A stretch of 51,963 nt of DNA from Thermodesulfovibrionales bacterium (GTDB taxonomy: Bacteria; Nitrospirota; Thermodesulfovibrionia; Thermodesulfovibrionales; Dissulfurispiraceae). Below the pieces are notes generated by a model, which had not been told where the DNA came from, searched no databases, and worked only from the letters and a program-made list of their open reading frames with translations. The DNA lies in assembly GCA_030017995.1 (NCBI GenBank), contig JASEGS010000010.1, positions 1-51,963 of the forward strand, given 5' to 3'. How positions within the stretch are numbered: the first letter of the stretch is position 1; each line of letters begins with the position of its first letter. Below are positions 5,092-51,809 of the stretch, one piece after another. The position numbers were made by a program, and so were the translations under genes.

Positions 5092-5964
5092 TTATAATGG
5101 AGCGCCGGGGTATCCAACTATTGAGATTCCAGCTTCTTCTGCTTCCTTTATCAATCTTTCCTTGTTAATTATTATGCTTCGGTTCGCTTCTATGGCAAGG
5201 GCACTTGCTTTTACTTTTATCATGGATTTGAGAGTGTCAATGCCTACTGCAGGGACATCAAGCCTCATATCTTGCTGGGGTTTAGACACCTTGACAACAA
5301 CTGAACCCTCGCCTGCCAAATTGCCCCCCCTAATTATGGTCTCATCTGTTCCTTCAATTGCTTCCACTGCCATTACAGCTTGACCCTTTACAACTACTGT
5401 TTGACCAATATCCAGTTTGCCGATTTCCTTTGCTATCTTATAGCCAAATTCGATGTCATTCCATTCATCTTGTGTGAGAGGAATTTTCGTTAAAAGTCCC
5501 TCTGGCGTAAGAAGATGGGGACTGAAGACAACGGTATCTATCACGCTGATTCCTTCCTCCTTCAGTTCTTTTGTTATCGCATTTAATATGGAATCGTCAT
5601 TTTTATCTTTGAGGGAAAAAAACAGTTTAATCGCCCTGAGATCCGGTATTACTTTTGACTTGTAAATGATGGTCTTGGGAACCTTCCCTGCCATTATGGT
5701 CTCTTTTACGCCATAGGATTTCAGGGTATTTATCAACTCACCCAGTTTGCCAACGTTAATCCACTTTATCTCATCTGAAATTTCGGCCAGTTCAAAAGAT
5801 GCAAGATTTTCAATGGCTGCTGTAATAACCTTAAAACCCCGCTCCTTTGCATCCCTGGCTATTATTACAGGAAGCTCTCCCATCCCCGCTATTATCCCGA
5901 TAATATCTTGACATCTGTCCTCTGTCCTCTGTCCTCTGTCCTCTGTCATTTGACTTACCTGCAT
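5092..5964 (-). CDS. lpxI: UDP-2,3-diacylglucosamine diphosphatase LpxI
   Basis: LpxI hydrolyses UDP-2,3-diacylglucosamine to lipid X, the step done by LpxH in E. coli; it is the form used by many non-gamma-proteobacterial diderms. Family features seen: IIGIIAGMGELPVIIARDA (about residues 21-39), the AGKVPK motif, SPHLLTPEGLLT in the middle, and the C-terminal DMRLDVPAVGIDTLKSM that includes the conserved Asp/Gly/Thr region. ATG at 5964 has AAGGGGA upstream and overlaps lpxA by 10 bp. Residues 6-17 (TEDRGQRTEDR) are encoded by a 7-bp tandem repeat and are not part of the family fold; see the repeat entry. Length is otherwise normal. No lpxH-like gene is in the window. Confidence 0.95.
   Translation of the reverse strand: MQVSQMTEDRGQRTEDRCQDIIGIIAGMGELPVIIARDAKERGFKVITAAIENLASFELAEISDEIKWINVGKLGELINTLKSYGVKETIMAGKVPKTIIYKSKVIPDLRAIKLFFSLKDKNDDSILNAITKELKEEGISVIDTVVFSPHLLTPEGLLTKIPLTQDEWNDIEFGYKIAKEIGKLDIGQTVVVKGQAVMAVEAIEGTDETIIRGGNLAGEGSVVVKVSKPQQDMRLDVPAVGIDTLKSMIKVKASALAIEANRSIIINKERLIKEAEEAGISIVGYPGAPL
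5915..5947. repeat. 7-bp tandem repeat inside the lpxI 5' end
   Basis: CTGTCCT (plus strand) is repeated 4.7 times without error. Because 7 is not a multiple of 3 the peptide repeats every 7 residues (TEDRGQR TEDR). It is translated as the N-terminal extension of LpxI. Confidence 0.95.
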
Positions 5965-6737
5965 ATTCCCCTTTTGTTTTTCTCTATGAATTTTACGAGA
6001 CGCGTTATTTCTGCCGTCTCGGGAAAATCTGTCTTTATCTTTTTCAATGCATCCTTCAATGTCCTTTTTTCCCTGAAGAGGATTTTATATGCCCTTTTCA
6101 GATTGTTTATTGCTTCATTTGAAAACCCGTGCCTTTTGAGACCGACGGCATTGAGCCCATAGAGTTTTGCACGTGCCCCTGATGCCATAGTGTATGGAGG
6201 AATGTCCTGTACGATGCCGCTGAAACCACCCACCATGGCATATGCGCCTATCCGTGTGTGCTGGTGGATAGCAACCACACCTCCTATTACTGCAAAATCC
6301 TCAACTACTACGTGCCCTGCCAGTGTTGCTGCATTTGCCATGATGGTGGAATTCCCGATTTTGCAGTCATGGGCTATATGCACATAGGCCATGAGGAAGT
6401 TTGAATCCCCTAACTCTGTGAGTCCATCTCCGCCAACAGATGCCCTGTGGATAGTAATATACTCCCTTATGATATTTTTCTTTCCAATCTTCACTCCTGT
6501 CTTTTCATTTTTATACTTTAAATCCTGTGGTGGAAGACCAATGGATGTAAATGGATATATTATGCAATCCTCTCGTATCTCTGTAATTCCTTCAATAACT
6601 ATATTGGATACAAGCCTTGTGCCGCTTCTTATTACGACACCATCGCCAATAATGCAAAAAGGGCCTATGCGAACATTGTCATCGATCTCAGCCTTCGGGC
6701 TTATTATCGCTGTTTTATGTATCTCCTTTGCCACCAA
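5955..6737 (-). CDS. lpxA: Acyl-ACP--UDP-N-acetylglucosamine O-acyltransferase LpxA
   Basis: LpxA transfers the 3-hydroxyacyl chain from ACP to UDP-GlcNAc, the first step of lipid A synthesis. The 260-aa protein shows the left-handed beta-helix hexapeptide pattern (AEIDDNVRIGPFCIIGDGVV and onward), the catalytic His in MAYVHIAHDC, and the C-terminal helical domain with AIGL-type NAVGLKRHGFSNEAINNLK. Starts TTG (6737) and GTG (6734) are adjacent; an AGGAGG just upstream suits GTG 6734 better, so residue 1 may be Val-coded. It sits between fabZ (5 bp gap) and lpxI (10 bp overlap), the usual lipid A order. Confidence 0.97.
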   Translation of the reverse strand: MVAKEIHKTAIISPKAEIDDNVRIGPFCIIGDGVVIRSGTRLVSNIVIEGITEIREDCIIYPFTSIGLPPQDLKYKNEKTGVKIGKKNIIREYITIHRASVGGDGLTELGDSNFLMAYVHIAHDCKIGNSTIMANAATLAGHVVVEDFAVIGGVVAIHQHTRIGAYAMVGGFSGIVQDIPPYTMASGARAKLYGLNAVGLKRHGFSNEAINNLKRAYKILFREKRTLKDALKKIKTDFPETAEITRLVKFIEKNKRGICR

Positions 6738-18321: not shown

Positions 18322-18396
18322 TAGAGCAGAAGAGCAGTAGAGCGGAAGATCAGAAGTAGAAAGACAAAAGCCTTTAACTTCTGCGCTTCTGCTCTA
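18322..18396. repeat. Palindromic GAGCAGAAG repeat element
   Basis: TAGAGCAGAAG (18322-18332) is the reverse complement of 18386-18396. Between them the left arm continues with degenerate 7-8 bp units (AGAGCAG, TAGAGCGG, AAGATCAG). Same style as the repeats inside lpxI and kdsB. Confidence 0.75.
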
Positions 18397-18429
18397 ATAT
18401 GGGTTCAGTAAGCAGGGCAAGTGGGATAA

Positions 18430-26062: not shown

Positions 26063-27046
26063 ATGGAAAAAGTTATTATTCTCCTCGGCCCCACTGGGGT
26101 CGGCAAAACAGTCGTTTCCATCCTCCTTGCAAGACATTTAAATACAGAGATTATAAGTTCTGACTCCATGCAGATCTATAAACACATGGATATCGGCACA
26201 GCAAAACCTTCTCAAAAAGAGAGACAGGCCGCGAAGCATCACATGATTGATATTGTTGAACCGTGGGAGTCATACAGCACTGGCCGGTATATTGAAGATG
26301 TCCAGCCCATAATCGCCAATCTGCATAATTCAAACAAGATACCGATAATTGTCGGAGGAACAGGGCTTTATATAAAGGCAATGACGAGAGGTATTTTTAA
26401 AGGCCCGTCTGCTGACTGGGATTTAAGAAATGACTTGCTTGAAAAAGAGAACGGGTCTCCCGGATATTTATACGAACACCTCAAATCGCTCGATCCCGCA
26501 GCAGCATCGAAGATAATGCCTTCGGACACGAGAAGGATTGTAAGGGCGCTGGAGGTATGCTTAAAAAGCAGCAAGGCGATGTCTGAAATGCGTGAATCTC
26601 TTACGCATCCCCTGCCCTATAAGTTCGTCAAAATAGGAATTATACGGGATAGAAAAGAGCTTTACAGGATGATTGAGCAAAGGGTTGATAAGATGATTGA
26701 AGACGGACTGGTTGATGAGGTTAAAAAGGTGATAACCTTGATAGCTGACACAGAGACACGGAGACACGGGGACACGGAGAAAATCTCCCATTCACCGGGT
26801 CATCGACTCACCGTATCATGCTATTCCTCCATGCAGGCAATCGGATACAAAGAAATAGCGATGCACATAAATGGAGAGATCAGTCTTGATGATGCAGTAG
26901 CCCTCATAAAAAAAAGGTCGAGGAATTACGCAAAGAGGCAATTCACATGGTTTAAGAAAGAGGATGGTATTCACTGGATAGATGTGACAGGAATACATGA
27001 GCCTTCTGATATATTCCAGAAGGTGCTACAATTTATACATGCCTGA
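26063..27046 (+). CDS. miaA: tRNA dimethylallyltransferase MiaA
   Basis: MiaA adds a dimethylallyl group to A37 of tRNAs reading U-initial codons. The 327-aa protein has the P-loop LLGPTGVGKTVV (6-17), DSMQIYKHMDIGTAKPS (35-51), VGGTGLYIKAM (92-102) and the C-terminal KKRSRNYAKRQFTWF. After GLVDEVKK, where the family goes on almost directly to SMQAIGYKEI, there is an extra stretch of about 25 residues (about 228-252) encoded by an 8-bp tandem repeat and flanking hairpin. The frame is kept, so the enzyme may still work. The next gene overlaps by 8 bp. Confidence 0.95.
   Translation: MEKVIILLGPTGVGKTVVSILLARHLNTEIISSDSMQIYKHMDIGTAKPSQKERQAAKHHMIDIVEPWESYSTGRYIEDVQPIIANLHNSNKIPIIVGGTGLYIKAMTRGIFKGPSADWDLRNDLLEKENGSPGYLYEHLKSLDPAAASKIMPSDTRRIVRALEVCLKSSKAMSEMRESLTHPLPYKFVKIGIIRDRKELYRMIEQRVDKMIEDGLVDEVKKVITLIADTETRRHGDTEKISHSPGHRLTVSCYSSMQAIGYKEIAMHINGEISLDDAVALIKKRSRNYAKRQFTWFKKEDGIHWIDVTGIHEPSDIFQKVLQFIHA
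26746..26819. repeat. In-frame repeat insertion inside miaA
   Basis: GAGACACG is repeated from 26753 (three units plus GAGA to 26780), followed by the hairpin GGAGA/TCTCC and an ACTCACC-like right arm. The peptide is of the TETRRHGDTEK type. The segment is placed between conserved MiaA motifs and is absent from the family core. Confidence 0.8.
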
Positions 27047-49339: not shown

Positions 49340-49395
49340 AATGTAAATTAGTCTTGTAAAATATTAATACCTTTTATGTTATCATAAAAAAAGGT

Positions 49396-51809
<2,414 letters not shown>

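Follow-up and report, generated by a model that had tools for sequence, protein, structure and literature searches.

A frame-neutral octamer array in a probably permissive loop of MiaA and the 7- and 8-bp repeat arrays of a Thermodesulfovibrionales genome

The miaA locus and its insert

The window, that is the whole stretch of 51,963 nucleotides analysed here, contains an intact miaA gene that carries a repeat-bearing insert, together with three further arrays of short repeats (Table 1). The MiaA protein is matched by TIGR00174 (E 1.2e-90, score 303.6 against a cut-off of 148.65 bits) and by PF01715 (E 4.6e-84). The full reading frame is retained, the TIGR00174 match runs across the insert, and all residues invariant among 33 MiaA homologues are kept. 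In structural comparison the fold is most similar to 2zm5, the complex of E. coli MiaA with tRNA (Z 34.9, rmsd 2.4, 303 aligned). A match of TIGR02928 to residues 196-238 is weak and far below its cut-off, and was set aside.

The insert lies in a surface loop between helix 216-235 and the QAIGYKE motif. The loop from GLVDE to QAIGYKE has 38 aa in the window. In 26 homologues from other phyla it measures 13-18 aa, and in 75 Nitrospirota homologues its length ranges from 14 to 47 aa. The surplus is about 22-24 aa and the reading frame is kept, in agreement with a preliminary description, made from the sequence alone, of an in-frame octamer insertion of about 25 residues. A conserved functional domain of MiaA was considered as the identity of the insert and rejected, because distant homologues lack the segment. 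In an AlphaFold2 model built from a 33-sequence alignment (mean pLDDT 92.3), the sole run below 50 consists of residues 242-247, and ten-residue blocks at the insert average 71, 48 and 81. The insert loop, for which the preliminary description had suggested checking a surface position on a MiaA structure, is the part of the model with the lowest confidence. As modelled, the insert is a poorly ordered loop extension and the remainder is an ordinary MiaA.

At the DNA level the insert consists of two arms. Tandem Repeats Finder reports a period of 8 for the 5' arm, with the unit GACACGGA. The 3' arm reads directly as CATTCACC GGGTCATC GACTCACC GTATCATG. The RNA of positions 26735-26830 has a predicted folding energy well below the mean of its shuffled versions (-20.6 kcal/mol), a value equalled by 4 of 200 shuffles, and the predicted hairpin has its apex at 26781-26783. 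The array and the hairpin first noticed in the letters are thus both recovered. The 3' arm, which base-pairs with the 5' arm in this predicted fold, consists of diverged CACC-rich octamers and only approximates its inverse. When 352 kb of the own genome were shuffled, no array scoring like that in MiaA arose, and the MiaA array is therefore no chance repeat.

Table 1. Coordinates of the miaA gene, its insert and the other repeat arrays in the window
Feature	Position	Strand	Description	Basis
miaA	26063..27046	+	tRNA (adenosine(37)-N6)-dimethylallyltransferase, 327 aa, intact	TIGR00174, PF01715, fold
5' arm of insert	26747..26780	+	4.2 tandem copies of the octamer GACACGGA, translated as DTETRRHGDTE	Tandem Repeats Finder, direct reading
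3' arm of insert	26784..26822	+	Diverged CACC-rich octamers, encodes ISHSPGHRLTVSC	Direct reading; pairing with 5' arm in the fold
Predicted hairpin	26740..26825	+	Spans the whole insert	RNA fold -28.8 kcal/mol, z -2.6
QAIGYKE motif	26834..26854	+	3' of the insert	(Nearly) invariant in 15 relatives, conserved in 33 homologues
KdsB array	49915..49977	+	CAGAAAA heptamers and inverse TCTTCTG arm, in frame in KdsB (ORF 49360-50190)	
LpxI array	5914..5947	-	CTCTGTC heptamers, read as TEDRGQRTEDRG near the LpxI N-terminus (gene 5095-6084)	
Intergenic array	18323..18399	.	Octamer-type array AGAGCAGA and inverse arm	No spanning ORF >=60 aa

A BLAST search of the own genome with 86 bp of the MiaA region finds three other places, each matching over 21-28 bp. 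One is in frame in a 430 aa BPL_N-like (biotin-ligase-like) protein named by eye (C8:11364), one is in frame within the NAD synthetase gene (NadE, C13:1089), and one is intergenic (C22:76468). Related octamer arms are thus present elsewhere in the genome. A mobile palindrome that recurs as one unit of about 74 bp, as had been proposed, is not supported, since the matches are partial and the octamer arm alone recurs.

The MiaA loop in relatives

Alignment of MiaA sequences from the family and the order shows that the same site is occupied by many different repeats. ACTCATC heptamers are found in five relatives, GATTCACC/CATTCACC octamers in nine, CAAACTC units in two, TTGCCCC units in two, CTTCCGG units in two and the CCCATCGCCTAT unit in one, and units of the window type, GACACGGA, are found in three. 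Some relatives have an unrelated peptide or none. Copies of MiaA without the segment, which the preliminary description had suggested looking for, exist, and other relatives carry different repeat units there. A single genus (g13) has three different units in this loop, and the loops of two related genera are short (L141) and filled (L128). The nearest relatives of the window share 77-79% of MiaA, and among them no near-identical strains were seen that form a clean pair of empty and filled sites for its own insert. On a tree of 47 MiaA rows from which the loop was left out, the unit label requires at least 16 state changes, part of them forced by the starred branches, and GACACGGA appears at four separate places. 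The units in the MiaA loop turn over.

Two comparisons show how the loops change in length. The MiaA genes of L007 and L009 are 21 bp apart, corresponding to three heptamers. The array of L136 has an additional 33 bp relative to its near-twin L142; this is a different palindrome, which is single-copy in a search of eight genomes at up to 3 mismatches. Nested in-frame palindromes occur within the octamer arrays of MiaA loops in three members of family f2 (L131, L133 and L136). The nested sequences in this family are CTCCTCGGCGAGTCGCCCGAGGCGA, CCCGAACTGATTTGGCGGG and TCCGCCGTAGCTGAACCAGCGAAGGCGG, the last being single-copy in its genome.

A genome-wide class of arrays

The own genome was sampled without bias over 352 kb, made up of the window and, for each of 15 contigs, its initial 20 kb; this is about a fifth of the genome. 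An autocorrelation scan of this sample finds 17 arrays of period 7, three of period 8 and one of period 6, so that 20 of the 21 arrays with periods up to 13 have units of 7 or 8 bp. The remaining rows have periods of 14, 16 or 18 bp and mostly resemble doubled heptamers or octamers. The same scan finds no arrays in shuffled sequence of this sample. The density is 56.8 arrays per Mb, compared with 3.6 per Mb in a 277 kb control from other phyla. Extrapolated from 57 per Mb, the genome would hold about a hundred such arrays, of which the MiaA insert, a frame-neutral array in a probably permissive loop, is one.

The restriction to 7 and 8 bp is also seen in G005, where 400 kb contain 22 arrays of period 7 and 4 of period 8 versus 11 of all other periods from 2 to 20. 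The genome of G005 is complete and in a single contig, and assembly artefact was rejected as a source of the arrays on this basis. Within the order, 32 of 176 genomes contain the heptamer CTCATCA, compared with 2 of about 90 genomes sampled from other parts of the phylum. Hairpin potential (z < -2) is found in 22 of 69 arrays and 5 of 60 controls; it is enriched, though not universal. A near-perfect array of period 12 (TCCCCTTTCTCC, nine copies) was also observed at a contig end in G001 (L015:3381-3488).

Among the other arrays in the window, that of KdsB lies inside the profile match (E 2.4e-91) and has a fold z of -4.5. The profile match of LpxI (E 7.4e-39) begins just past the CTCTGTC array, which may for this reason be located upstream of the true start of the protein.

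Placement in genes

The arrays are dispersed and largely intragenic. About 11 of the 21 in the sample lie deep in conserved genes and two between genes; about 8 others occur close to an N-terminus or within weak ORFs. The conserved genes are those of MiaA, KdsB, Tgt, Alr, HemH, AlaS, PheT and NnrD, together with an AddB-like protein, a lytic transglycosylase and a copper ATPase. Elsewhere in the own genome arrays occur in NadE, PurL (two) and MurJ (two). Those in KdsB, Tgt, Alr, HemH, AlaS, PheT, NnrD and NadE are inside the profile-matched region. Some names used for array-bearing genes of the own genome and the order (CarB, CobB, KdtA, CobJ, HypF, PurL and MurJ) are by-eye readings of the sequence. 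A LeuS-like gene of 878 aa, likewise named from sequence, has three arrays, two octamer and one heptamer (L268:10479-11057, contig C52).

Orientation is biased. In loci chosen by pattern from 176 genomes, 15 of 15 interior copies of GACACGGA arrays are coding and share one orientation, and about 32 of 36 CATTCACC arrays are in frame, always on the coding strand. The CTCATCA arrays of the order behave in the same way.

The sites within proteins also recur. In a comparison of 131 array-bearing proteins, the sites coincide between homologues of different genomes in 106 of 130 cases, versus 23.8 at random (maximum 37), a count that includes vertical inheritance and does not represent independent insertions. 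These sites form 23 clusters, most of them with mixed units, and one site in a precorrin-methyltransferase-like protein has six array kinds across six genomes. The same loops are reused by different units, and because the units differ between genomes, the units at shared sites turn over. At one site in cobyrinate synthase-like proteins (L196, L204, L207 and L208), a second repeat encoding approximately LVGNxSSSEGLRTSRND adjoins a CATTCACC array.

Frame neutrality

Neither 7 nor 8 is divisible by 3, so that an array yields a single cyclic peptide whichever frame is read: GACACGGA gives DTETRRHG, CATTCACC gives HSPIHPFT and ACTCATC gives THHSSLI. Elements of the GACACGGA type have a mean of 2.67 open frames out of 3 in the sense direction versus 1.13 in antisense, and CATTCACC and ACTCATC arrays have antisense stops. 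As stop content differs by strand, selection can explain the strand bias. An array that is stop-free on one strand would be harmless to translation whenever its total length is divisible by three, and selection would then retain the copies inserted in the readable orientation in loops and linkers that tolerate extra hydrophilic residues. The MiaA loop may be one such permissive site, and we infer that the insert is neutral for the enzyme.

Arrays read in the opposite sense were found at L251:9224-9255 and L264:17594-17676, where FSVFCLL-like repeats form the hydrophobic core of apparent signal peptides, the first of them with a lipobox. Such reverse-read arrays are also consistent with filtering at the level of the peptide.

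Origin and spread

Based on these observations, it seems likely, with a probability of about two in three, that the MiaA insert is a member of a genome-wide class of hairpin-prone 7- and 8-bp arrays that has been copied to many places, including housekeeping genes. Copies could arise at the DNA level, by template switching or by insertion of a single-strand hairpin, with slippage afterwards altering the number of units. Evidence for copying comes from variant units. Two arrays of the own genome, that in KdsB (W:49915, in the window) and that at L251:9224-9255 (contig C4), share 32 identical bp that include a variant unit, and three genes of G041 share one variant-bearing array. In a set of 48 own arrays, identical variant units connect about four pairs of loci. 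Because few pairs share such units, wide copying between loci is only partly demonstrated.

An unlikely alternative is that the arrays have a purely local origin, slippage growing short seeds in place within permissive loops and nothing moving between loci. This would account for the different unit sequences found at one site in different genomes, for changes by whole units such as that between L007 and L009, and for the imperfection of the arrays, as expected of old slippage products. Against it stand the shared 32 bp and variant unit at two loci of the own genome and the presence of CATTCACC at more than 10 unrelated loci in G141 and G026, where a reversed-pattern control gives 0. Slippage alone also leaves unexplained the restriction to 7 and 8 bp and the paired complementary arms.

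The arrays are short, hairpin-prone, dispersed and in frame in genes, features that they share with transposable elements of the RPE or REP type. An enzyme dedicated to moving them, such as a RAYT-like Y1 transposase, could in principle be available, as Y1 profile matches number five in the own genome and are present in 20 of 31 family genomes. Yet G002 and G022 (96-98% complete) have arrays and no Y1 match, there is no full-length conserved element in the own genome, no target-site duplication was seen between L136 and L142 or between L128 and L141, and direct reading of 26740-26825 finds neither the GTAG nor the CGTC tetranucleotide. Mobilization of this kind appears improbable. A reverse transcriptase was also considered as the maker of the arrays and set aside, the own genome having no RVT_1 match.

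It is very improbable that the insert is adaptive, the longer loop altering tRNA recognition or stability of MiaA with the repeats as raw material. Many members of the order have a long, fast-varying loop, and the fold matches a MiaA-tRNA complex, but the same site in relatives holds unrelated peptides or nothing, unrelated enzymes carry identical peptides, and model confidence for the loop is very low. Phase variation, a known outcome of tandem repeats in other bacteria in which adding or losing a single 8-bp unit would break the frame (as a 7-bp change would) and turn MiaA off, can practically be dismissed, given that no complete MiaA copy matched has an internal stop, that the arrays are short and imperfect, and that the off state would presumably be lethal for the array-bearing AlaS, PheT and LeuS-like genes.

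Relation to known repeats

Copying of a dispersed array class, the reading favored here, can be compared with three known systems. Rickettsia palindromic elements are short in-frame repeats in unrelated metabolic and housekeeping genes that are tolerated by the protein (PMC10969869, PMC3733652). The likeness to these elements drawn in the preliminary description holds in that the MiaA array is in frame in an ORF that still encodes the full enzyme and can fold as a hairpin (z -2.6). It does not extend to the unit of repetition: Rickettsia palindromic elements are sequence families of about 100-150 bp, whereas the arrays described here have many sequences in steps of 7 or 8 bp and no long conserved element. 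They also occur in Nitrospirota, and reuse the same loops with different units. Taken as a whole, the earlier interpretation is partly supported.

Heptameric repeats of cyanobacteria, Xanthomonas and Beggiatoaceae (STRR, GGGAATC and TAACTGA) are tandem 7-bp repeats that are dispersed and sometimes form facing inverted pairs (PMC4692102, PMC4679880). The MiaA array is of the same tandem 7-8 bp type, with its period of 8 and 4.2 copies. However, the known heptameric repeats are reported mainly from intergenic positions, with one or few units per genome, while those described here are mostly intragenic and in frame in conserved enzymes, with many 7- and 8-bp units. REP/RAYT palindromes are short and dispersed, and some are intragenic (PMC3733652), but they are fixed sequences of 20-40 bp with GTAG/CGTC tags and a mostly extragenic location, unlike the tagless array in MiaA. 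In its mode of action the MiaA array resembles a Rickettsia palindromic element and in its construction the heptameric repeats, and by the features compared here it belongs to neither group. No prior description of the array class or its encoded peptides was found in the open-licence literature, an absence that is weak evidence.

Significance

Protein-coding palindromic repeats were previously known mainly from Rickettsia and Wolbachia. The arrays of this order suggest a simple reason for safe entry into genes, in that a unit whose length is not a multiple of three gives one peptide in every frame and is open on one strand. The near-exclusive period of 7 or 8 bp places a direct constraint on the machinery behind the arrays. 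Inserts of this kind can also be a source of error in annotating these genomes and aligning their proteins. The reuse of loops across genera marks positions that tolerate insertion in MiaA, PheT, HemH and NadE and, by eye, in CarB and PurL.

A more tentative possibility is that a process not yet described, present in members of the order, generates or copies DNA in steps of 7 or 8 bp, by which arrays would keep invading and replacing one another at the same enzyme loops. If this is true, the arrays would constitute a natural genome-wide map of insertion-tolerant sites in dozens of essential enzymes.
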